From positions 1 through 40,659 of the forward strand of contig CADCKR010000017.1 of NCBI GenBank assembly GCA_902802105.1: DNA of 40,659 nt, written 5' to 3'. Positions 4,725 through 38,076 of the stretch are shown one piece after another (position 1 is the stretch's first letter; each line of letters starts with the position of its first letter). The position numbers and the translations under genes are program-made. Source of the stretch: an uncultured Ruminococcus sp. (GTDB lineage: Bacteria > Bacillota > Clostridia > Oscillospirales > Acutalibacteraceae). Below the pieces are notes generated by a model. The model made no database searches, was not told where the DNA came from, and worked only from the letters and a program-made list of their open reading frames with translations.

Positions 4725-4867
4725 GGAAATTGATTTTGGAGCACCGGCGAGTTACACGGGGGAAACCCTTCCTAAAACCGCTGAATTTGATATGTTTGAG
4801 AACAAAATACTACACAGAATCATCCTCTATTGTAATTCTGTGATACTGCCTGCCATAAAATTGATTT
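4725..4867. repeat. Diverged and expanded copy of the 88-bp TIR element
   Basis: Outer parts match, in inverted orientation, the element at 29204-29291: the block CACCGGCGAGTTACACGGGG (4743-4762) and the block with TCTATTGTAATT, TGTGATACTGCCTGC and AAATTGATTT (about 4827-4867). About 65 nt in the middle have no counterpart at 29204-29291. The terminal AAATTGATTT overlaps the stop codon of the minus-strand gene ending at 4866. Together with the T-box leader it fills the gap between pheS and that gene. Confidence 0.7.
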
Positions 4868-7800
4868 ACGCATTGCTGGCATCAGTATCAAAGCAGACAG
4901 AATCAACAAGCTTCTTTTCAGCCTTGTTATAGATCACGATGTTAAGTCCGCGGCTGTTGACAGAATAGTTTTTGCCGTCAATTTCAATTACGGCTTCGTT
5001 TCCGTTGCGGTAAACACGGCTTGCAACATAGAGCCTGCATCCGCCTACATCGGAATTGAAAACAGTCGGTCTTTCTCCGCTGCCAAGCTGCTCGAATACG
5101 ACCCTGCCGCTGTTGATGACGGCAGCATAGCTGTGACCGTGCTGTCCTTGAAGGTTTGTGCTCAGTCCGAGAGCCTTGAGCTTTTCGGAAACAGATGGAT
5201 CAAGCGCGGCTCCCGTAGTATCCTTGACGGCTATAACGATAATATTGCCGTCTGTTTTGTTTTTGAGTGAGCTGAGATAACCGGTCATGCTGTTGTCCTC
5301 CGGAGCGCTTTCCTCGTCCATGCCGGCAGCCATGCTCATCACAAGTTCCATAAGATTGTTGATCTTTTGCTCCTGCTCGTCAATTATCTCACGGAGTATA
5401 TCAAGCTCGCTGAAAGCTGCGACCTTTGGCTTATCAAGGGCTTTTGTGAGCCAGTCTGTGCAGCGCGCGCGTTCTCTGTCAAGAATTTCGTATACCTTGT
5501 CATAATCCACCGGCTGCGCAAGCAGTTCGAGGTCTATGTCAGAGGAATCTGAGATAAGCCTGTCTTCAAGATGCAGCATTTTTGCAATGGACCAGAACCT
5601 TGCTGCGCCCCGGTGCTCGTTGATGATAACGGCAAAGGGCTTCCTCATAAGGATAGCAAAGCACATACCGTGAAAAGAATCAGTCACGAAATATTCGCAG
5701 TTGGCTATGCTTTGCAGTCTTTCTTCGGTTTTCAGCGGACCTTTGTAAAGGTCGCCGAGAGGCTCGTAATATGAAGCGGGAAGATTATATTCCGAGAAGG
5801 TCTCGCAGTCCGCATCAAGACTTTCCTTGAAATAACGCACGATCATGGCTTTTTCTTCGGAAGGGTCAAGAATGTATGCGCTGACGTATCTTTCGGGAGT
5901 TTTGCGCCGGCAGCGGCCGATAAGAGCCTGATAATGCTTCATATCGCAGAGGAACACCGGGTCGAGCACCCATTCTGCGTTGTTTATGCCGTATACCTCT
6001 TTTGCGGTAACAACACCGCTGTCCTCACGGCATGAGAAGCTGTCGAAGCGCTGGAGATAAAACGCAAGCTCCCTGTGTATCTTGGGGTCGCCGAGAGTGC
6101 GCCCGAAGGAAGCCGAATAAGCGATCTTCTTTTTGTCATCGCTTACCCAGTCGAGAGAGGTATATTTATCGAGCTCTGAATAGAGATAGAAATTAAAAAG
6201 CTTGTCTGAGCCTACAACAAAGGTATCGCACTTGCTGTTGAGATTGCGGCGCATTTCCGTTTTGTCCGGGTAAGATTCAGCCACGGCGTAATCCGGATAA
6301 AGCGGAGCAATGTGTATCTTTTTGTACTGGTCGATCAGGCCGCTCAGATACTTTGCGGTTTTGGGGCGCTCTATCATAAGGACGGAATATCCGAGGTCTT
6401 CAAGCGTATGATAAAGCGCATAGTGTGTCAGAGCGCCGCCGAAGTTCTTTGCGTAGAAGTTGACGGCAAGACCTACATCAAAGTGATTTTTTGTCAGCAG
6501 TTCAACACTTCTTGTCAGTGTATGGTGTTTAAGCAGCTCCATAAATCTTGGGCGCTTGGGGCTTGCCGGATAGATCGGAAAAACACGGGTCTTTTTGATA
6601 TCGCTTGTTTTAAGGTCCATTTTCTTCTTTTTGAGAAGCCTTGAATTTATGGAATCAAAGAACTGTCTGCCGTTCTGATTGTTAATGAAAACAATGGATG
6701 TTCCGAGATGATCGGTCATTTCGGGAGCGATATCCTGTATGCCCCAGAAATCGCCGATAGAAACATCGCCCTGTCTTGGGAAAGCACAGAATTTGCAGTC
6801 TGCGCAGGAAAGCCTGAGCGCAATCTTGTCATGGAAAACGTGCTCAAAGGGGTCGTCTTTTTTAAGGCTGCTTTCGTAGACTCTGCCGTTGCTGAATTCT
6901 ATGCGGATAAAGGTGCTGCTTCTCCAGCCGTGGCGCATTTTGTCACGGAAAATTATATTGACAGGCTTCGGCGGCACTCCTTCGGTGCATATTTCCGGCC
7001 GTGCCGATATTTCTTCAATATATGTTCTGAGCATCTTTTGTGAAGGAACGCCGTGACAGAGAATATCAACGGTAAAAAGATTGTCATAGCGTCTGCCGAG
7101 ATACGAGTTAAGTCCTGCCACCTGACATGGGGTTCCGGTAAAGAGTACGGGCTTGTTTTCGTTCAGCAGCTTTTTAACGTCACGGTAGAGAGTGCCGATA
7201 TTGCTCTGAGCATATTTTGACTTTTTCATAGCCTCTGTTCCGTCGGTAGTGTCTGCGATTATATGCCTTATCTCCAGATTGTCGCTGTCAAACACTGCGC
7301 CGCATACATAGCCGCCCATTTCAAGTATCTTATCGGCAAAAACGGTAAACATACCGCCGGATGAGCTTGATGTTCTCACCTCATCGTTTGCCATAGCCGA
7401 ATATATTATAGGAGCTTCTGTATTATCTGCGGGGACATTAACGGCCGGACAGGTATTGATGCATTTGCCGCACCTGATGCACTTTTCGGGGTCTATGCAG
7501 GGCATGATGAAGCCGTCAGGGTTTTCCTTCATAGACACTGCATCGGCAGGACATACATTGACGCAGGCAGAGCAGCCGGTACATACATTTTCGGGCACAC
7601 CGGCAACAGTTTCGGGATTTATGCCGTTCATCTTGTCGTTCCGGAAGGTCTTTATGCGCTTGTCGCCGGCCGGCGCTTTCTTTTCGGATCCTATAGCATT
7701 TTTCAGCCAGTCGCGTGACTGCTTCGATTTTTCTTCAAGTATTGCCCTGACCTTTTCATAGTCGATCTTCTGATCAAGCAGCTCGGCTATGCGCTTATCA

Positions 7801-8795
7801 AGGTATTCGGGAGTATTATCTTCAACGTCAAGGTGTATGAGCCTGTTTTCAAGTCCGACGGCTGAAAGCAGGGTGCGGAACCTGGGCAGACCCTGTATCT
7901 CTCTTGCGAGTATAACAAAAGGACGTTCAAATATAAGCGCGAAGCAAAGTCCGTGGAATGAGTCGCCAACATAGCACTGGGTGTTTTCAAAGTATTTCAG
8001 CCAGTCTTCAACACTTGGCAGAGAGAGGTCTTTTTCGCTGATGCCTGTTTCTTCCTCAGAAAGATTTGGATTTGGCAGGATAACGGGCTTACAGCCGAGC
8101 TTTTCCGACATCCTGATGAACGCGCCGTGTTTCAGCGCTGTAGAGCCGAGGAAATACGAGGTCGTGTATTTTTCGGGCAGCTGCAGCTTTGAGTTTGCGG
8201 CTATATCATGGTAGACCTGCCTGCTGCACAGGAAAACCGGATCCATTATCTTATCAGCGCTGCAGCCGAACACATCTTTGCATATCCTGACAGCTTCATC
8301 CTCACGCACACCGATATGATCGAACTTCTTCATACACTGTTCAGACCACGTTTTTTCAACGTCAGGCGACTTATAGCCGTCTCCGAAGGAACACGCCATT
8401 GCTATTTTCTTCTTGCTGTCATCCGCAAAATCAAGGAAGAAGAACTGTCCGGAATTGCGGCACGATATCCTGTAGTTCCACACGACGTCGGAACCGACAA
8501 TAAAGGTATCAATATCATCGTTCAGCTTACGGTAGTCAAGTGAGCTGTGATATGACGGAGTTACGTTATTATCACAGTATTTGTATATGAATTTGTTTGC
8601 GATAGTATCCTTTTCAGCGTATTTAGGCGTCCAGAGCACCTCCGGCTTGTTTACCATAGCGGCACTGAGCCCCATAGACTTAACAACGTCATAAAGTGCG
8701 TAATAGGTAAGTATTGAGCCGTAATTCAGACCGTACCACAGTCCGACTATGCCTACGTCATAATGCTTATTTTCGTTTACTTCGGGATTGCTCAT
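4866..8795 (-). CDS. Multidomain polysaccharide pyruvyltransferase / Fe-S FrhB-type oxidoreductase / ILEI-like protein
   Basis: A 1309-residue cytoplasmic fusion without signal peptide or membrane segments. Residues 12-365 are a polysaccharide pyruvyltransferase domain (CsaB-like; VGSDVVWN 100-107, GDSFHG 277-282). Residues 405-450 hold two [4Fe-4S] ferredoxin motifs (CTGCSACVNVC, CIRCGKCINTC). Residues 463-720 match the coenzyme F420 hydrogenase/dehydrogenase beta subunit (FrhB) family (SSGGMFTVFA, GTPCQVAGL, CADCKFC, GDFWG). Residues 771-1118 are a second pyruvyltransferase domain (VGSDKLFN 861-868, TDSFHG 1038-1043). A coiled-coil-like linker (1128-1156) leads to an ILEI/PANDER-like domain (1172-1305). 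Pyruvyltransferases of this family add pyruvate ketals to surface glycans; FrhB-type partners are common beside them and may act on a flavin or glycan-linked redox step. It follows a GlfT2-like glycosyltransferase by 116 nt, suggesting joint action on one envelope glycan. A ribosome binding site AAAGGAG supports the start. Exact substrates are unknown. Confidence 0.88.
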   Translation of the reverse strand: MSNPEVNENKHYDVGIVGLWYGLNYGSILTYYALYDVVKSMGLSAAMVNKPEVLWTPKYAEKDTIANKFIYKYCDNNVTPSYHSSLDYRKLNDDIDTFIVGSDVVWNYRISCRNSGQFFFLDFADDSKKKIAMACSFGDGYKSPDVEKTWSEQCMKKFDHIGVREDEAVRICKDVFGCSADKIMDPVFLCSRQVYHDIAANSKLQLPEKYTTSYFLGSTALKHGAFIRMSEKLGCKPVILPNPNLSEEETGISEKDLSLPSVEDWLKYFENTQCYVGDSFHGLCFALIFERPFVILAREIQGLPRFRTLLSAVGLENRLIHLDVEDNTPEYLDKRIAELLDQKIDYEKVRAILEEKSKQSRDWLKNAIGSEKKAPAGDKRIKTFRNDKMNGINPETVAGVPENVCTGCSACVNVCPADAVSMKENPDGFIMPCIDPEKCIRCGKCINTCPAVNVPADNTEAPIIYSAMANDEVRTSSSSGGMFTVFADKILEMGGYVCGAVFDSDNLEIRHIIADTTDGTEAMKKSKYAQSNIGTLYRDVKKLLNENKPVLFTGTPCQVAGLNSYLGRRYDNLFTVDILCHGVPSQKMLRTYIEEISARPEICTEGVPPKPVNIIFRDKMRHGWRSSTFIRIEFSNGRVYESSLKKDDPFEHVFHDKIALRLSCADCKFCAFPRQGDVSIGDFWGIQDIAPEMTDHLGTSIVFINNQNGRQFFDSINSRLLKKKKMDLKTSDIKKTRVFPIYPASPKRPRFMELLKHHTLTRSVELLTKNHFDVGLAVNFYAKNFGGALTHYALYHTLEDLGYSVLMIERPKTAKYLSGLIDQYKKIHIAPLYPDYAVAESYPDKTEMRRNLNSKCDTFVVGSDKLFNFYLYSELDKYTSLDWVSDDKKKIAYSASFGRTLGDPKIHRELAFYLQRFDSFSCREDSGVVTAKEVYGINNAEWVLDPVFLCDMKHYQALIGRCRRKTPERYVSAYILDPSEEKAMIVRYFKESLDADCETFSEYNLPASYYEPLGDLYKGPLKTEERLQSIANCEYFVTDSFHGMCFAILMRKPFAVIINEHRGAARFWSIAKMLHLEDRLISDSSDIDLELLAQPVDYDKVYEILDRERARCTDWLTKALDKPKVAAFSELDILREIIDEQEQKINNLMELVMSMAAGMDEESAPEDNSMTGYLSSLKNKTDGNIIVIAVKDTTGAALDPSVSEKLKALGLSTNLQGQHGHSYAAVINSGRVVFEQLGSGERPTVFNSDVGGCRLYVASRVYRNGNEAVIEIDGKNYSVNSRGLNIVIYNKAEKKLVDSVCFDTDASNA

Positions 8796-8911
8796 CAGTA
8801 TAACTCCTTTTCCGGTATTTTTTAGGAACTTTTATTCGGTCTGTGCGCGTTGGTGCCCTGAGCATGGCAGATAAGACAAGCAGAAATGAAAAATAATTTC
8901 TGAACGGTTCC

Positions 8912-10732
8912 TTATTCAATATCAAGATATTTCTTCCAGAAGCTCAGTTCCATAAGCTCACGGCCGCGCTCGCTGTAGGATTTTGCGGTTTTGCGGTACC
9001 TGAATCTTGCTTTTAGTGACAGCGACCATAATCTCAGCATCATGCCCAATGTTTTCATTGAGCTTTTCACGGTCACAAATCCCTTTCCGCTGCAATCGTC
9101 ATAGTGAAGCACCCTGTGCGCACGATAGAAATGTACAGGTCTTGCGGCAAAGGTGGGCGCAATGGAAGGCATATCGGTTTTCTTTTTTCTTTTGCATGGC
9201 AGTATTATGCCGTTGGCTGTAGCTTTTCTCCACATCCTCTGCTTTCGGCCGGGTTCCGGCAGCTTTGACGCACGTACATATTCGTCATGGTCAAACGGCA
9301 CACCAAGCTCCTTTATATCCAGAAGCCTGTAGCCTCTGCCGATTATATCCTTGTGCAGCGCTTCACCGTCCTGCTTCATAAGCCAGTCTACGCCCCTGAA
9401 ATAATCGTTTGCGCCGTCCAGAAGGAGCCTGGCGTTTTTGTAGCGGTAGAATACAAGCTCTCGCTTGACCTGTGAGGTCAGGTTTTTGATGAACATTTTA
9501 CGGGTGTAGGGGAGAGAGTGTATAGAATTGTCAATAAGCCTGTTCCTGAAAATGTAGTAGTACATTGATGATGAGTATTTGTTCTCAAACGGCTCGTGCC
9601 AGACGCATATACCGTTCATAAGTATGAGGTGCTTCATGTTCCGCAGACCGTATTCAACGTCATCACCTCTGATGAAGATAGGCAGCGGCAGATTGCTCTC
9701 GCTGACGACATCAGCAGGAAATGCGCAGTACCACCATGCGTTGTATTCCGTTTCCTCTTCTTTTTCGTTAAACAGGCAGGCTTCAGGTCTGTTGAGGTCA
9801 AGGCCGGACTTATAGGATATCAGCTCTCCCATGTTCCATTTTGCGCCGTTTTCGGTCTGAATATTCTGATTGTCGAGCCTGAGCATAGCCCCGCCCACGA
9901 AAGCATCCTTGTATTCGTCCCTGAGCAGTGAGAGCAGTACAAAGGTGCGGTATACAGAATCGGGGTTGATTATTATATCATCGTCCATAACAAGAACATG
10001 GGTGATGTTTCTTTCACTGCGGCACTTCATTATCTCTATCATGCCTCTTGTAAATCCGCCTGCACCGCCCGTATTCCTGTTGCCGAAAACGTGTATCTTG
10101 TCGCAGAGCTCTGTTTCGCTGCGGCTGAGCGTTTTTGCATTGTCAGAAATAAATATTTCGAGGTTATCGCTCATTCCCGATCCAGGGTCGCTGAGGAAGG
10201 TATCGTACATTTCCTTTACGTTTCGCAAGACAAACTCCTCACGCTTGAAGGTGCATATATCTATGGCGATCTTCACACGGCGTATATCTTCGGGAGCTGT
10301 TTCGCCTTCGTACCAGCCCTCAAAGATCGTTCCCTTATCGCTCAGGCATGAGAGCTTAAAGCTGTATATCCCCTTGTCGGAGCTGCTTTCAAACGGGAAG
10401 GTATAAACGCCTTCCTTACCGTCACTGCCGAAAATATGCCTGCCAAGTGTCTCTGAGGCAATGCCGTCTTCGGTCCTTTCCTTGCGCATGAGCGTTATCC
10501 TGAACCTTCCGCATACGCGCAGAACGATGCTTATTTTTTTTACATTTGTATATTTGTGCCATTTCTCAACGGTACAGCCGTTAAAGTAGGTATCAAAGGA
10601 TATGATAGTATCACTTTCTGTTTCAAGCCGATTTTTTTCTTGTATCAGCCGTGTATCTCCGTCACTGCGGAAATAAAGTTTTTCTTCGGTGCATATTCCT
10701 GTTTTCGGAAAAATCAGGTTTTGAAGTTTCAT
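8912..10732 (-). CDS. GlfT2-like galactofuranosyltransferase (GT2)
   Basis: A 606-residue glycosyltransferase. Residues 1-150 resemble the N-terminal beta-sandwich of GlfT2-type polymerases. The GT-A domain begins at VKIAIDICTFKRE (153-165), followed by SDNAKTL, GNRNTGGAGGFTRGM (217-231), the metal-binding VMDDDI (248-253), the acceptor motif RGDDVEYGLR (355-364) and VWHEPF (377-382); a helical C-terminal region follows. GlfT2 enzymes use UDP-galactofuranose and act at the inner membrane face. The start at 10732 is chosen because GGGAG is suitably spaced and the sequence from MKLQNLIF matches the family; the longer frame to 10912 runs through the promoter. It is the first gene of the glycan unit. 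The sugar specificity is inferred from the family. Confidence 0.85.
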   Translation of the reverse strand: MKLQNLIFPKTGICTEEKLYFRSDGDTRLIQEKNRLETESDTIISFDTYFNGCTVEKWHKYTNVKKISIVLRVCGRFRITLMRKERTEDGIASETLGRHIFGSDGKEGVYTFPFESSSDKGIYSFKLSCLSDKGTIFEGWYEGETAPEDIRRVKIAIDICTFKREEFVLRNVKEMYDTFLSDPGSGMSDNLEIFISDNAKTLSRSETELCDKIHVFGNRNTGGAGGFTRGMIEIMKCRSERNITHVLVMDDDIIINPDSVYRTFVLLSLLRDEYKDAFVGGAMLRLDNQNIQTENGAKWNMGELISYKSGLDLNRPEACLFNEKEEETEYNAWWYCAFPADVVSESNLPLPIFIRGDDVEYGLRNMKHLILMNGICVWHEPFENKYSSSMYYYIFRNRLIDNSIHSLPYTRKMFIKNLTSQVKRELVFYRYKNARLLLDGANDYFRGVDWLMKQDGEALHKDIIGRGYRLLDIKELGVPFDHDEYVRASKLPEPGRKQRMWRKATANGIILPCKRKKKTDMPSIAPTFAARPVHFYRAHRVLHYDDCSGKGFVTVKSSMKTLGMMLRLWSLSLKARFRYRKTAKSYSERGRELMELSFWKKYLDIE

Positions 10733-10778: not shown

Positions 10779-10807
10779 ATTTTATCATTAAAGGTATAAA
10801 TAATCAA
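10779..10807 (-). promoter_or_regulatory. Promoter of the glycosyltransferase / pyruvyltransferase unit
   Basis: On the minus strand TTGATT (10802-10807), 17 nt and TAAAAT (10779-10784). The 5' untranslated region would be about 40 nt and includes the 22-nt repeat. Confidence 0.6.
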
Positions 10808-12460: not shown

Positions 12461-15268
12461 TCATGCGTTGACTTTAAGAGCGAATTCCTTTACCCTGACT
12501 GTGCCTGTGCTGTCCTTGACCTTTATCTGCAGGGTATATGTGCCAAGTGAAGCCGGAGTCCATGTGTGGCTTTCTGCTGAGCTGTAGCCCCTGAGGACCG
12601 TCCACTTGCCGCTTGGAGCCTTTACGACATAAGCGTACTGATAGGGAGCCTTGCCGCCTGATGCCGAGCCGCTGAATGTAACGCTCTGTCCCTTGATGAC
12701 GGATGCTGCGGAAACGGACGAGGTATTTGCAAGTGCCGGAAGAACTTTAAGGTCAAATGCCTTTACTTTGACTGTGCCGGCGCTGTCCTTGGCCTTGACC
12801 TGGATCTTGTAGGTACCTGTGCAGGCCGGGGTGAACTTATAGCTTGCGCTGTCGCTGTAGTTTTGCAGTACGAACCACTTGCCCTGGGGATTCATCGTTA
12901 CAAATGCAAACTGACAGGGTTCTGTGCCGCCGTCTGCGCTGCCTGTAATATTTACGCTGCCGCCGAGAATGATGCTCTCGGCAGACATTGAAGAGGTGTT
13001 TTCAAGCTCCTTTGGTACAAATGCAGACCTGCACGTTACCTTTACCGTCTTAGCTGACGGATCATAAGCAAGATCAATGAGAGAGCTTGCGTTCAGACCG
13101 CTTATGGTTATGCTCTTGCCTCTTGAAGAAGATTTTGCGAGAGTGAAGCTGTGCTCGCTGCCTGCTTCAAAAGTAAGCTTTGCGCTTTCCGAAAGGCTGT
13201 AATACTTATCGTCGAACTTGTCATATACACAGAAGCTGAAATTATTGCTGCTTCCGGAAGTATATGTAGTGGTATATGCGCCGTTTCCGTCCGGCTTCAT
13301 AAAGGTGTCCACAGCATTCCAGCCGTGCTCGTCTGTTACATAATAAAGCAGTGCATAATGAGTGTTTTCCATCTCTTCGAGCGAGAAGTTGGAAACACAA
13401 TACTTTCCGTTTTCACTTCCGGCTATTGAGAATGTATCGTACTTGAACGAGCGCAGCGAAAGATCGACTGTCTGCTTTTCGTTGCTGCCGCAGTTAAAGA
13501 TGATATTGCTGTACTTGGTCTGGCTGAAATCTATCATGTAGATATCATTGTTTTCAGCGTCTTTGCCTACCTTTGTCATCTCTGCGCCCGGCCATTCCTT
13601 ATTCTTGGATGAACCGTCCCATGCATAGGCGCACACCTTGCTCCAACCCTTGTTGTTTACAAAGTAGTATGCATCGCGCAGAGGAAATACCTGTATATTT
13701 CCTGTATAGGCCTCAAGCCCTTCTATGCAGCTTTCAAACTCATCAAGTATTCTTTCATCAACGATAACGGCATTCTTGTATTTATAGTAAAGCTTTTTCA
13801 GAGCCTGATAGCTGTCGTATGATGCAAACTGGTAATTATCCGAAAGTATGCCTGCCGCCTTTTCAAGCTCAGGCCTGATGTCAACATCAATATTCTTTGG
13901 CGGGAGAGGACCTACGATCGGACCGATGCGCGGAGAAAGATGTGTGCGTGATCCCTCCATGATGTAGCAGTACTTGGGGTATATCAGCTCTTTGAGGATA
14001 TTCACGCCGTAGAAAACTATCTCATTTTCGTATACCTCGGTCATATATGCCTGAGAGTTGAAGCCCTTGCCGCCGTTTCTTTCAAGCTTGGTATAGGAAG
14101 AATCCGGCATTGTAGAACCTGCAAGAGACGGAGTATGTATCATGTGAGCGGCAGTGCCGTTCTCGTCAGAATAGTTGTAATCCATAGAAAAATCCTCGTG
14201 GGTATGCCCCGAAAGGAATACTATGTTAGGATACTTTTCAAGGAGAGCTTTGAATTTTTTGGTCGATTCATGCTTCTGATTGAGCATTCCGCTGTAGTAG
14301 GGATTGCTCATTCTGTCGCCTGCGCCGAATCCCTCGATCGGTGAATGCTGGATAAGGAATATATTATTATACTGATAGTTTTTCTCAATAAGATCAGTTG
14401 CCCATTCGATCTGCTCATCCGAAAATTCCTCGTACTGATTAGGCGACTTGTTGAACTCGAGCGCCATAAATATAAAAATGTCGCCGGTCAATTCATCTAT
14501 CCTGTAAAAATACGGCTTACCGCTTTTTGAACCGTCGGTACCCGAACCCTTTATAAAGGATCTCAGACCGCTTGATACGTCCTGACGCATATCGTGGTTG
14601 CCGTCAGACTCCCATACAGGATTGACAAAATCACTCTTGCTCAGAACCTTCTGATAAGCAGCCCATTCCTTGTCGGGGCCTGAATCGTTTGTGACACAGT
14701 CGCCTGAAACGATGATGTAATCCGCATTGTTCTTTACGCTGTAGGCAAGTCCCTGCTTGAAATTGTTCTCTGCATTGACATACCAGCCTGAGCCCTTGTC
14801 GATATGGACATCCGAGAAGGTGCTGAACTTATAGAGCAGATCTCCGCTGGCCGACAGCAGCCTTTTGCTCTGGGGTATGTCATAAACCGTGTATGCGTCT
14901 GCTGTGTAAAGTGAGTCTGTAACTGCAATGACCTTTGTAGCGCCTGCGGGTATGGCTGTATGGTAGCCCATGCTCACATTCTTGCTTTCGCCTGCATTCA
15001 TGCTAAGCTCGTCTATAGGATAATAGCCGTCAAGAGCCTTGGTGTCGTCTGCCCAGTAAAGCTTATACTTTGCCGCAGCATCAGCCTTGAGGGTGATCTG
15101 TCCTTCGGCGTAGCCTGCCTTGTCACTAAAGTTTCCGGTGAAGGTATAGGTGAGTTCTTTCGCTGCCGAAGCTGCATAAACGGCACTGTATGATGATATC
15201 ATAACAGGAAGAGCAAGAGATGCCGAAAGCAGAAGCACTGCGGTTCTGGATAGTGTTTTTGCTCGCAT
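12461..15268 (-). CDS. Secreted metallophosphoesterase with CBM26-like starch-binding module
   Basis: A 935-residue exported protein with signal peptide (1-33, cleavage near VYAASA). A calcineurin-like phosphoesterase domain spans about 145-420, with metal motifs DVH (153-155), GDC (189-191), GNHD (223-226), QHSP (307-310) and GHTH (354-357), so all key residues are present. Residues 533-605 (YYFVNNKGWSKVCAYAWDG, EWPGAEM) look like CBM26. Residues 640-745 form another beta-rich module. Two tandem repeats (757-843 and 848-933; each has NTSS, then SVxFxGSAxGG, KW, TYxxQxKxKDS) close the protein and are typical of Ruminococcus secreted proteins. No transmembrane or LPxTG anchor is seen. The phosphorylated substrate is unknown; starch or a starch-bound surface is a likely location. 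The start has AAAGGAAC upstream. Confidence 0.88.
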   Translation of the reverse strand: MRAKTLSRTAVLLLSASLALPVMISSYSAVYAASAAKELTYTFTGNFSDKAGYAEGQITLKADAAAKYKLYWADDTKALDGYYPIDELSMNAGESKNVSMGYHTAIPAGATKVIAVTDSLYTADAYTVYDIPQSKRLLSASGDLLYKFSTFSDVHIDKGSGWYVNAENNFKQGLAYSVKNNADYIIVSGDCVTNDSGPDKEWAAYQKVLSKSDFVNPVWESDGNHDMRQDVSSGLRSFIKGSGTDGSKSGKPYFYRIDELTGDIFIFMALEFNKSPNQYEEFSDEQIEWATDLIEKNYQYNNIFLIQHSPIEGFGAGDRMSNPYYSGMLNQKHESTKKFKALLEKYPNIVFLSGHTHEDFSMDYNYSDENGTAAHMIHTPSLAGSTMPDSSYTKLERNGGKGFNSQAYMTEVYENEIVFYGVNILKELIYPKYCYIMEGSRTHLSPRIGPIVGPLPPKNIDVDIRPELEKAAGILSDNYQFASYDSYQALKKLYYKYKNAVIVDERILDEFESCIEGLEAYTGNIQVFPLRDAYYFVNNKGWSKVCAYAWDGSSKNKEWPGAEMTKVGKDAENNDIYMIDFSQTKYSNIIFNCGSNEKQTVDLSLRSFKYDTFSIAGSENGKYCVSNFSLEEMENTHYALLYYVTDEHGWNAVDTFMKPDGNGAYTTTYTSGSSNNFSFCVYDKFDDKYYSLSESAKLTFEAGSEHSFTLAKSSSRGKSITISGLNASSLIDLAYDPSAKTVKVTCRSAFVPKELENTSSMSAESIILGGSVNITGSADGGTEPCQFAFVTMNPQGKWFVLQNYSDSASYKFTPACTGTYKIQVKAKDSAGTVKVKAFDLKVLPALANTSSVSAASVIKGQSVTFSGSASGGKAPYQYAYVVKAPSGKWTVLRGYSSAESHTWTPASLGTYTLQIKVKDSTGTVRVKEFALKVNA

Positions 15269-31676: not shown

Positions 31677-32714
31677 ATGAAAATTATACCCGAAAATTTG
31701 TATATGAGATCTTTGCTGGAAAAGCTGTGTACAGACAGCGGCGTTTCGGGCTGTGAATATGAAATGCTGCCTGTAATAAATGACCTGCTCGGCAATATCG
31801 CGCAGATAAGCACCGACAGCAGCGGAAATATCATCGCTTCGATGGGCACCGAAAACACAAACAAGCATATTATAATAGATGCTCATATAGACAGGATCGG
31901 TCTTGCTGTTACCTGCATAAATGAGCAGGGCTTTGTAAAGGCTGAACCTGTCGGCGGCATCGACCTGCGCTCACTTCCGGGGAGTGCCGTAAAAATTCAC
32001 GGAAGCAAGGAGCTGACCGGAATAATATGCACTATGCCGCCTCATCTCTCGGACGGAGATGAGCTTTCACGTGATAAAATATGGATAGACACCGGACTTC
32101 CTGCCGGAAAGGTAAGGGAGATAGTGTCGCTTGGCGATACGGCTGTTCTGTGCAGCGAATTTCGGGAGCTGCTCGGAAACAAGGTCTCCGTATCGGCTCT
32201 TGACAACAGGAGCGGCTGTGCCATTCTCGTCAGATGCGCGCGTCTTCTTGCAGAGGAAAAGCTGCCCTGTCGGGTATCCTTTGTTTTTTCCTCTCAGGAG
32301 GAAACAGGCGAGCTTGGCGCAGGAACAGCGGCATTTTCTCTTGAACCGGATGAAGCTGTAGTTATAGATGTAGGCTTTGCCGCTCAGGACGGCGTACCTC
32401 CCGAAAAAAGCGGCAAGCTTGGCTGCGGCGGCATAATCTGCATATCACCTGTGCTTTCAAAGCAGGTGACACAGAAGCTCATGGACATTGCATCCTGCCT
32501 TGAAATGAAATACGACTTTGAGGTATGCGGCGGTGCTACCGGAACCAATGCCGACAGGATAGCCTGTTCACGCAAAGGAGTAAAAACAGGCGTGATATCT
32601 TTGCCGTCAAAGAATATGCACACTCCTACAGAGGTCGTCAGCCTTGAAGATATGGAAAATCTTGCTGCGCTTCTGAAAATCTATATAATGGAAGGCGGTG
32701 CAGACAATGCTTGA
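31677..32714 (+). CDS. M42 family metallopeptidase (first of a pair)
   Basis: A 345-residue glutamyl-aminopeptidase/endoglucanase-family protein with two-metal centre: DAHIDRIG (His and Asp), ALDNRSG (bridging Asp), SSQEETGELGA (catalytic Glu-Glu), VIDVGFA (Asp) and NMHTPTE (His). All metal ligands are kept; HIDRIG replaces the more usual HMDEIG. M42 enzymes are cytoplasmic and form large tetrahedral oligomers that trim short peptides. The next gene, a second M42 member, overlaps its end by 8 nt, so the two are coupled and may form a mixed complex. Confidence 0.9.
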   Translation: MKIIPENLYMRSLLEKLCTDSGVSGCEYEMLPVINDLLGNIAQISTDSSGNIIASMGTENTNKHIIIDAHIDRIGLAVTCINEQGFVKAEPVGGIDLRSLPGSAVKIHGSKELTGIICTMPPHLSDGDELSRDKIWIDTGLPAGKVREIVSLGDTAVLCSEFRELLGNKVSVSALDNRSGCAILVRCARLLAEEKLPCRVSFVFSSQEETGELGAGTAAFSLEPDEAVVIDVGFAAQDGVPPEKSGKLGCGGIICISPVLSKQVTQKLMDIASCLEMKYDFEVCGGATGTNADRIACSRKGVKTGVISLPSKNMHTPTEVVSLEDMENLAALLKIYIMEGGADNA

Positions 32715-33732
32715 CTATGAGCTTCTGCAAAAGCTATGCACAAGCTGCGGCATTTCCGGTGACGAAGGTGAGGTGCGTGAGCTTATCCTCAATGAAATAA
32801 AGCCCTTCGCCGACGAGATCACCGTTGACGCTTCCGGAAATATCATCGCCTTTAAAAAAGGCAGGCGCACACCTGCAAAGAAGCTGCTTATCTCTGCGCA
32901 CATGGACGAGGTAGGCTTTATAGTAACATATATAACCTCAGACGGCTGTTTGAAATTCGACTGTGTTGGCGGCGTCAATGACAGCGCTGCATTTTCAAAG
33001 AATGTAAAGGTAGGCCCCAAAAAGCTGCACGGTGTTGTCTGCGCGAAGCCGGTGCACCTTCTCACTGCCGACGAGAAAAAGAAAAGCCCCAAGATTAAAG
33101 ACCTGCTTATAGACATAGGCGCCGAAAGCCGCGAGGAAGCCGAAAAATACGTTTCGCCCGGCGACAGCATTGTTTTCGACTCGCTTTATGAGAACAGATA
33201 CGGCAGAGTTATATCAAAGGCAATAGACGACCGTTTCGGCTGTCTTGTGCTCATTGAGCTTATCAGGAGCGAGTTGGAATATGATACATGGTTCAGCTTT
33301 GTCGTACAGGAGGAAATAGGTCTGCGCGGCGCAAAATGTGCGGCTTTTTCGGTCGCTCCCGATAATGCCATCGTGATAGAGGCCACCACTGCGGCCGATG
33401 TGCCTTATTCTGAGAATGAGGACCGTGTATGTCTTGTCGGCGGCGGCGCCGTTGTCACATTTATGGACAGGGCGACAATATACGATAAGGAGTTTTACCG
33501 CATTGCAAAGGAATGCGCAGAGCAGGAAGGCATTAAATTCCAGACAAAGACAAAAATAGCCGGCGGCAACGATGCAGGAGCGATACATTCATCACGCGGC
33601 GGCGTCAGAACGCTTGCCATATCCGTTCCGTGCAGATATCTTCACGCATCAGGCAGCCTTGCATCAACAGATGATATGGAAGCCGTGTTCAGGCTTGCAA
33701 GGTCTGCGGCCGCAAGAATACAGGGAATGTAA
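32707..33732 (+). CDS. M42 family metallopeptidase (second of a pair)
   Basis: A 341-residue paralogue of the upstream peptidase with SAHMDEVG, AIDDRFG, VQEEIGLRGA, VIEATTAAD (Glu where the partner has Asp) and RYLHASG; the centre looks functional. The start ATG at 32707 is preferred over the in-frame GTG at 32698, because GGAAGG (32690-32695) is too close to the GTG. The clearly different metal-site residues of the two copies suggest different substrate specificity. Confidence 0.9.
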   Translation: MLDYELLQKLCTSCGISGDEGEVRELILNEIKPFADEITVDASGNIIAFKKGRRTPAKKLLISAHMDEVGFIVTYITSDGCLKFDCVGGVNDSAAFSKNVKVGPKKLHGVVCAKPVHLLTADEKKKSPKIKDLLIDIGAESREEAEKYVSPGDSIVFDSLYENRYGRVISKAIDDRFGCLVLIELIRSELEYDTWFSFVVQEEIGLRGAKCAAFSVAPDNAIVIEATTAADVPYSENEDRVCLVGGGAVVTFMDRATIYDKEFYRIAKECAEQEGIKFQTKTKIAGGNDAGAIHSSRGGVRTLAISVPCRYLHASGSLASTDDMEAVFRLARSAAARIQGM

Positions 33733-37179: not shown

Positions 37180-38076
37180 ATGACAAGAGACGAAAAATTC
37201 ATGCGGTCTGCCCTTGAACTTGCAAGACAGGCGCTTTCGCTTGGCGAAGTGCCTGTAGGCGCCGTTGTTGTTCTTGGGGAGAGGATAATCGGCAGCGGCT
37301 TCAACAGCCGTGAAACAGACAAAAACTCCCTTTGTCATGCTGAGATAAAAGCGATAAATGACGCCTGTAAGAACCTCAACGGCTGGCGGCTGAATAACTG
37401 TGAGCTTTTTGTAACGCTTGAGCCGTGCCCCATGTGTGCCGGAGCAGTGATAAACTCCCGGATAAAGCGGGTGATATATGGCGCATCGGACAAAAAAGCG
37501 GGTTCGTGCGGTTCTGTGACAGACTTGTTTGCATTGCCGTATAATCACAAGCCTCAGACAGTCAGAGGTGTGCTTGAAAATGAATGCTCAGATATACTGT
37601 CGGAGTTTTTTTCGCAGCTCAGGCTCAGTGCGGTTCAGGCCGGAAGCGAAAACGGTATATTTTTCTTTGCGGAAGGAACTCTCTGGAACGATTCGCCGCA
37701 GCACTATATGTATCCGGGCATAAAAGAGCTGCTCCAAAAGCTGCACGAGAATTACAGAATACTTGTCGTCAGCATCATGAGCTCCGAAGAGCTCGACGAT
37801 ATCATCCAAGCCCACGGTCTGGACATATACATTGACTGCCGCAGGTCATACGGCATGAGCGAGGGTCTTGCAAAGACCGATGTGCTGCGTATGCTTATAA
37901 AGCGCAGCAGGCTGAAAAGAGCTTTCTGCACAGGCAGCGCAGACACTGACAGGCAGGCTGCACAGACCTGCGGCTTACCGTTTGTCTATGCAGCATACAG
38001 CTCCGGAAAGGTTCGTTCATGCGATGCAGCCATTACATCTCCCGCTGAATTGCTTCAAAAGATAACACTGCTGTAA
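37180..38076 (+). CDS. tadA: tRNA adenosine deaminase fused to a degenerate HAD-like domain
   Basis: A 298-residue protein. Residues 1-148 are TadA, which deaminates A34 to inosine in tRNA-Arg(ACG): CHAEIKAI (zinc His and catalytic Glu, 52-59) and EPCPMCAGAV (zinc cysteines, 81-90). Residues 158-298 match the HAD fold (FFFAEGTLWNDS 161-172, YPGIKELLQKL, VVSIMSS, GLAKTDVLRMLI, CTGSADTDRQAAQTCGLPFV). In the first motif the nucleophilic Asp is replaced by Phe163 and the second Asp by Glu165, so phosphatase activity is unlikely. Normal TadA ends at about 150-165 residues. No frameshift is needed, so the fusion is real in this sequence. A GGAG site precedes the ATG. Confidence 0.93.
   Translation: MTRDEKFMRSALELARQALSLGEVPVGAVVVLGERIIGSGFNSRETDKNSLCHAEIKAINDACKNLNGWRLNNCELFVTLEPCPMCAGAVINSRIKRVIYGASDKKAGSCGSVTDLFALPYNHKPQTVRGVLENECSDILSEFFSQLRLSAVQAGSENGIFFFAEGTLWNDSPQHYMYPGIKELLQKLHENYRILVVSIMSSEELDDIIQAHGLDIYIDCRRSYGMSEGLAKTDVLRMLIKRSRLKRAFCTGSADTDRQAAQTCGLPFVYAAYSSGKVRSCDAAITSPAELLQKITLL

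Follow-up and report, generated by a model that had tools for sequence, protein, structure and literature searches.

A fusion of two pyruvyltransferase-family domains with an Fe-S/FrhB unit in an uncultured Ruminococcus may add lactyl ethers to a galactofuranose glycan

What does a bacterium make with a single polypeptide that joins two pyruvyltransferase-family domains to an iron-sulfur redox unit, just downstream of a gene for a GlfT2-like galactofuranosyltransferase? The question is raised by a 40,659-nt contig of an uncultured Ruminococcus sp. (CADCKR010000017.1, assembly GCA_902802105.1), which we refer to in full as the window and which belongs to a 2.0-Mb draft genome that is 89.5% complete. 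An earlier sequence-only reading had proposed a compact two-gene pathway that polymerises a galactofuranose-type glycan and decorates it with pyruvate, with a redox step built into the same polypeptide. Our analysis points in part elsewhere and suggests that the fused enzyme probably decorates the glycan with lactic acid, not pyruvate.

The fusion gene (4866..8795, minus strand, as are all its parts below) is an intact open reading frame that starts with ATG, contains zero internal stops and encodes 1309 residues. Translation and Pfam searches place its five parts in the order PST1 - 2x[4Fe-4S] - FrhB - PST2 - ILEI, so the frame described by the sequence-only reading is real and its domains were correctly placed. 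Family PF04230, whose members we call PSTs, scores 219.9 bits in two stretches of the frame: PST1 (7902..8726) scores 112.5 bits against a cut-off of 25.3 and PST2 (5616..6446) scores 119 bits, and the two are only 33% identical to each other. Between them lie two [4Fe-4S] (Fer4) motifs at about residues 403-451 (7443..7583), with eight cysteines that are invariant across 16 aligned rows, the window being one row. These are followed by FrhB_FdhB_N at residues 464-533 (7197..7406; 30.3 bits, cut-off 22) and FrhB_FdhB_C at residues 550-719 (6639..7148; 66.5 bits, cut-off 23.3, or 63.9 bits in the Pfam search), the latter being the sole match to its family in this 89.5% complete genome.

The weakest call is the ILEI-like C-terminal domain, assigned by Pfam and alignment to residues 1166-1305 (4881..5300). 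PF15711 matches residues 1166-1230 with 28.3 bits, little above its cut-off of 27 and marginal alone. Once excised, the domain reaches 33.4 bits, and in an alignment of members that includes the window 15 of 15 match the family at E<=0.01. In a profile search of solved structures the top match was cell-surface hyaluronidase (E 0.001), and FAM3C matched weakly (E 0.23) amid others at chance level. The ILEI/GG domains of animal glycan enzymes bind glycans, which suggests a holding role for the domain here.

Which reaction the PST domains catalyse may be read in part from their active-site residues. In CsaB, R148, H308 and K328 are reported as critical for binding phosphoenolpyruvate (PEP), R306 is predicted by docking to be an additional PEP contact, and a K328R variant is active (PMC10435577). 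The ketal pyruvyltransferases CsaB, Pvg1p and WcaK share the PF04230 family and the R148 and H308 equivalents with both window domains; however, they carry R-L-H where the window domains carry S-F-H. In a profile alignment, S279-F280-H281 of PST1 (codons at 7953..7961) and S1040-F1041-H1042 of PST2 (5670..5678) align to CsaB R306-L307-H308, which places serine at the R306 position. The K328 column falls in a gapped loop, where PST1 has Q but PST2 has R; since K328R works in CsaB, this column was given up as a further hallmark of the subfamily.

This difference tends to follow the presence of FrhB. At the R306 position, 52 of 74 FrhB-linked PSTs have S or T and 22 have R, whereas the triplet is R-x-H in 19 of 20 PSTs from genomes lacking FrhB. 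These 20 controls were hand-picked among the highest PST matches of genomes where FrhB gave no hit; that 0 of 20 hold FrhB is by construction and carries no weight as evidence, and CsaB-like enzymes are favoured. We then used an S-F-H profile of 24 rows (21 FrhB-linked PSTs, the two window domains and one genus PST) on 293 genomes of the class. An S-F-H-profile PST and FrhB occurred together in 54, the PST alone in 7, FrhB alone in 23 and neither in 209 (p 1.4e-32). Among genomes with only other PST types, FrhB was present in 20 of 130.

The association extends to gene order. FrhB is encoded in 77 of the 293 genomes and PF04230 in 191. A PST was found in 63 of 80 FrhB stretches, within 2 kb in 58, within 300 bp in 38 and in the same frame in 9; this count omits weak or fragmentary FrhB hits (e.g. 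G110, G108, G165, G194, G177) and does not include our own genome or G090. These data support the view of the sequence-only reading that the redox unit and the transferases work together. Its remark that FrhB homologues sit beside pyruvyltransferases is borne out too, and for their unclear function there is now a concrete candidate, reduction of an enolpyruvyl intermediate. Among open-licence papers, a search for FrhB or F420 hydrogenase together with pyruvyltransferase turned up only PMC4616057. CofE, a single marker gene for F420, was not found in any of 64 genus genomes, which are drafts; on this absence F420-dependent redox was rejected for the genus, and FrhB here is probably not F420-linked.

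Beyond the class, we read nine Escherichia coli loci with divergent glf out of 610 genomes with a glf match. O124 and O58 had been set beforehand as tests of the lactyl-ether hypothesis. The O124/O164 cluster has FrhB and an S-F-H PST adjacent, FrhB was not seen in the remaining eight loci, and O58 was not found. A DNA similarity search of 5426 E. coli genomes located O124-type FrhB in 5, each annotated O124/O164, and a short stretch of it on a single plasmid; IAI1-type FrhB is present in 8 genomes, with 3 more short matches of which the two that were read are O69. The O124, O69 and IAI1 locus types each couple FrhB with an S-F-H PST that shares the clade of the window domains, either next to it (O124, IAI1) or one gene away (O69), and the O124 locus also has glf. 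They differ from the window in having separate genes, a single PST and a much diverged FrhB, and in that ILEI and GlfT2 are not annotated there. All four E. coli FrhBs (O124, IAI1, plasmid, O69) were found by profile. A tblastn search of plasmids gave no enterobacterial FrhB and 7 plasmid records only, from Bacteroidota and Clostridia.

Phylogeny points the same way. A 53-row tree splits S-F-H from R-x-H types with support 100/100 and gathers window PST1 and PST2, genus and order PSTs, and the PSTs of E. coli O124, O69, IAI1 and plasmids in one clade (100/95); alternate control rows, alternate FrhB-linked rows and four rows from E. coli, L261 included, were left out of this tree. A quick 108-row tree made before O69 joined gave the same grouping with support 94; rows below 240 residues and most same-genus loci were dropped from it, and one WcaK fragment was grouped as 'frh'. 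Long branches were flagged in both trees. By BLAST, PST2 is 30% identical to the O124 PST (E 7e-36), whereas PST2 gave no hit to the ketal-maker WcaK at E 1e-3.

Related S-F-H PSTs, 85-100% identical, also occur on three E. coli plasmids. On one the PST lies beside a nitroreductase; another has it twice, once next to what is left of a nitroreductase and once next to FrhB; the third carries two copies, of which one is intact and adjoins an insertion sequence and the other is truncated and follows a nitroreductase. As clean proof that nitroreductase and FrhB are interchangeable these loci are weakened, being ridden with insertion sequences and truncated genes. We also observed a second class of FrhB-linked PSTs with an R-T-H triplet (11 of 74; e.g. 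L110:12248-13423(-) and L121:2080-3255(+)), which mostly forms one branch on the R-x-H side of the tree. Across the five complete O124/O164 genomes (loci including L263, L267, L310 and L311) FrhB is 100% identical, whereas the PST reads as a single frame in 2 of them and is split in the other 3. O164 presumably lacks a lactyl group, in which case the split PST would be a natural loss variant. A cross-reaction of O164 with S. dysenteriae 3 is the subject of a title cited in PMC13161533.

Is there chemical precedent for a transferase and a reductase acting in this way? MurA and MurB transfer an enolpyruvyl group and then reduce it to the lactyl ether of muramic acid. The chemistry we propose, enolpyruvyl transfer and flavin reduction to a lactyl ether, is the same, but the proteins are unrelated and the MurA/MurB substrate is a soluble nucleotide sugar. 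FrhB-family enzymes reduce a vinyl group with ferredoxin in chlorophyll biosynthesis.

Klebsiella capsules provide a second parallel. Pan et al. 2015 list 46 capsules without pyruvate, among which K8, K22, K37 and K66 still have pyruvyltransferase genes (PMC4616057). In PMC3857182 the K22 and K37 cps genes are described as the same except for one acetyltransferase frameshift, and a title cited there gives the K22 capsule 4-O-[(S)-1-carboxyethyl]-D-glucuronic acid, a lactyl ether. K22/K37 have a PST gene, as the window does, and a capsule free of pyruvate, with the difference that they are likened by descriptions, not sequences; the 2 nitroreductase genes and 1 coenzyme F420 hydrogenase gene reported among 79 Klebsiella loci are counted there without capsule types (PMC4616057). 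The diheteroglycan of Enterococcus faecalis carries a 3-O-lactic acid ether on beta-galactofuranose (Galf) (PMC3060912, PMC8424007). It matches the proposed product, by product and not by genes, and serves as a chemical precedent for a lactyl ether on a galactofuranan.

The likely acceptor is indicated by the gene upstream. This gene (8912..10732, minus strand) encodes a 606-residue GlfT2-like galactofuranosyltransferase, recognised by Pfam and by its match to solved GlfT2: a Glft2_N domain (10343..10726) scores 34.4 bits against a cut-off of 26.1, and residues 3-453 align with the solved protein at E 2e-32 (phmmer). The sequence-only reading had named the protein in the same way. A GT-A region (9860..10258) resembles Glycos_transf_2 under that family's own cut-off (GT2 17.5 bits), and an alignment shows DDD, GDDVEYGLR and VWH motifs, within and downstream of it, in common with solved GlfT2; we take the DDD, DD and H motifs to be catalytic. 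Mycobacterial GlfT2 thus shares Glft2_N and these motifs, but this genome has three paralogues, one of them tied to the fusion. Both genes of the pair lie on the minus strand, 116 bp apart (8796..8911), with an AGGAG-type site ahead of the fusion ATG and no terminator-like site found within the gap, so a single transcript is likely. The GlfT2 ATG is preceded by a weak promoter-like element, TTGATT-17-TAAAAT (10779..10807, minus strand), which is a consensus match only.

If the pair acts on galactofuranose, the genome should supply UDP-galactofuranose (UDP-Galf). Of 64 genus genomes, 32 encode the mutase GLF (PF03275) and 35 have GlfT2-like genes; both are present in 31, GlfT2 alone in 4, GLF alone in 1 and neither in 28 (p 1.7e-12). 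The fusion and GLF were found together in 19 of 61 genomes, the fusion alone in 3, GLF alone in 12 and neither in 27 (p 3.9e-5). The presence lists behind these statistics, and behind those for the class, were transcribed by hand. In the window's own genome GLF lies on another contig (G000:C35), away from the window locus, so that a supply of UDP-Galf is present; apart from the GlfT2 gene that neighbours the fusion, one paralogue adjoins the mutase and another a PST-like gene. GlfT2, a fused FrhB-PST and the mutase form one run in three distant relatives. G090, from a different family of the same order, has a close-packed run of an ABC membrane protein, an ABC ATPase, GlfT2, a Fer4-FrhB-PST fusion and GLF. 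The galactofuranose-type glycan proposed earlier is therefore well supported by co-occurrence and gene adjacency. A two-gene pathway is too small a description, because the mutase and two more GlfT2 paralogues are encoded elsewhere and the G090 run is larger.

The PST-like gene beside the third paralogue, on contig 31 of the own genome (L064:16069-17289(-)), lacks the R148 and H308 equivalents, shows VSVNNFYN and TDDYYG at those sites and has the appearance of a pseudo-enzyme. Degenerate PST copies of this kind adjoin GlfT2 in several genus genomes.

The fusion is neither a chance frame nor an artefact of assembly. The complete five-part frame, free of stops, occurs in 14 of 61 genus genomes, the own genome counted, which rules out assembly error; 3 further copies are clipped by contig ends, 1 is interrupted, and 4 of the 61 genomes have a four-part form without PST1. 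A second collection of 36 loci, which shares many assemblies with the genus set and is not an independent count, holds 15 frames longer than 1250 residues. These loci are mostly metagenome-assembled genomes filed as uncultured Ruminococcus, Clostridia or Clostridiales, from the rumen, rectum and cecum of ruminants and deer where titled. Among them 34 frames have both FrhB and PST. In 26 of the 34, a GlfT2 gene of the same orientation lies no more than 200 bp upstream; 2 of the 34 are at contig edges, and the mutase gene is directly downstream in 3.

Modules are reshuffled in relatives, giving ILEI-PST-Fer4-FrhB, PST-Fer4-FrhB, and PST with thiamine-pyrophosphate (TPP) enzyme domains. The PST-TPP fusions stand in GlfT2 clusters of the same genus (L072:9190-13086(-), L094:4481-7231(-), L077:9534-12188(+)) and have TPP_enzyme_N plus a MenD-like middle or C-terminal domain. 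Two PST-Fer4-FrhB fusions of 1414 and 1561 residues (L096:3696-7940(-), L079:7532-12217(-)) carry hexapeptide-transferase domains, with an additional epimerase domain in L079.

From these comparisons we infer a reaction, its acceptor, its electron donor and a role for the ILEI domain. In the best reading, which we hold to be slightly likelier right than wrong, enolpyruvyl transfer followed by flavin/Fe-S reduction would place lactyl ethers on a galactofuranose polymer. The gene pair would polymerise and modify a galactofuranose-containing surface glycan, with the GlfT2-like protein adding galactofuranose from UDP-Galf made by the mutase encoded elsewhere. The two PF04230 domains would move the enolpyruvyl group of PEP onto sugar hydroxyls. 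Ahead of ketal closure, the Fe-S/FrhB unit would reduce the enolpyruvyl C=C bond with electrons from ferredoxin passed via flavin, not F420. The product would be an acidic lactyl (1-carboxyethyl) ether, as if the MurA/MurB pair worked on a polymer. The ILEI domain may keep hold of the glycan, and two transferase domains may serve two positions or residues. A lactyl ether is preferred to a ketal because the S-F-H subfamily, the FrhB partner and the E. coli and Klebsiella counterparts point there, and decoration with pyruvate is most likely not what the fusion performs. Our confidence in the lactyl ether rests on the class-wide association, the shared clade, the K22 case and the O124 case, where we take the antigen to bear a lactyl group.

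Several observations weigh against a lactyl ether. The most direct alternative, that of the sequence-only reading, is that the PST domains form pyruvate ketals on galactofuranose and FrhB carries out a separate reduction in the same pathway. PF04230 is, after all, named after pyruvyl transfer, and Klebsiella K12 is reported to carry just such a ketal, 5,6-pyruvyl-Galf (PMC4616057). Arginine is kept by the 22 of 74 FrhB-linked PSTs mentioned above, 27 of 84 S-F-H-profile hits have no FrhB within 6 kb, and 7 of 61 genomes with an S-F-H PST have no FrhB hit; the last two sets of cases mean that some S-F-H enzymes make ketals or that the reductase lies elsewhere. The S-F-H PSTs of those 7 genomes have no adjacent nitroreductase either; the closest one that shares a contig is 21 kb off, and nitroreductase was discarded as a general stand-in partner in FrhB-less Clostridia. 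By blastp, the window FrhB found only the plasmid one of three E. coli FrhBs (E 5e-7), missing O124 and IAI1. The E. coli locus L261 has an S-L-H PST and no FrhB within the 17 kb shown; this PST falls on the R-x-H side of the tree on a very long branch. We take O124 to be a lactyl-ether (glucolactilic acid) antigen, and a literature search on this gave only a Shigella boydii 17 title. That title, cited in PMC5643014, concerns two genes for glucolactilic acid. Even so, a ketal is at odds with the S-F-H rather than R-x-H triplets of the window domains, with their clade, shared with the PSTs of E. coli FrhB loci and apart from WcaK, and with the K22 capsule, in which a PST gene goes with a lactyl ether and no pyruvate (PMC4616057, PMC3857182). 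We consider ketal formation unlikely.

Other assignments would change the substrate of one component. FrhB is a broad flavin/Fe-S fold and 17 of 80 FrhB stretches lack a PST (some are short contigs), as would be expected if FrhB reduced a sugar or other glycan component, such as a keto-sugar, and were fused to PST merely because both serve a common polymer. However, a reductase of another substrate would not need to be tied to one PST subfamily as FrhB is, and we regard this as improbable. A mixed product, with one PST domain making a lactyl ether with FrhB and the other a ketal, would suit the low PST1/PST2 identity, their unlike K328 columns and the four-part relatives that retain FrhB and PST2; both domains are nevertheless of S-F-H type and share one clade, which leaves this outcome more doubtful still. 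We attach equally little weight to a GlfT2-like protein that takes another furanose or hexose donor, so that the polymer would not be a galactan. Remote similarity cannot reveal specificity, and the search for GLF came up empty in 3 of the 22 genomes with the fusion (G044, G036 and G059, which are 77%, 73% and 93% complete), but GLF and GlfT2 co-occur and adjoin each other.

Lactyl ether formation may reach well beyond this locus. With somewhat less assurance, falling a little short of an even chance, we propose that a large S-F-H subfamily of PSTs, instead of forming ketals, are enolpyruvyl transferases that make lactyl ethers with a ferredoxin-fed FrhB, or with a nitroreductase in some enterobacterial capsules. 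The rumen fusion would be the extreme case, with both steps, two transferase sites, a galactofuranan and its own glycan-holding domain. Neither FrhB-PST pairs nor GlfT2 nor lactyl ethers are new in themselves, and the genes for one lactyl sugar are named in a printed title. New within the open-licence literature are the five-part fusion with its GlfT2 partner, the class-wide S-F-H/FrhB link and the proposed reassignment from ketal to lactyl ether. If correct, a widespread gene pair gains a function, many glycans of gut bacteria that are predicted to be 'pyruvylated' should be relabelled 'lactylated', and many genes now annotated as pyruvyltransferases would be expected to act otherwise. Lactyl ethers are more acid-stable than ketals and would change charge and recognition in another way. 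The residue at the CsaB 306 position together with an FrhB neighbour offers a simple test, and the fusion would provide one enzyme for crystallisation and assay.

Three further loci in the window caught our attention. A secreted-looking metallophosphatase with starch-binding CBM26 and Y_Y_Y repeats is encoded at 12461-15268 (-). Two neighbouring M42 aminopeptidase genes overlap by 17 bp at 31677-33732 (+). At 37180-38076 (+), a single frame joins a cytidine/MafB19-type deaminase domain to a HAD-like domain that scores under its cut-off.

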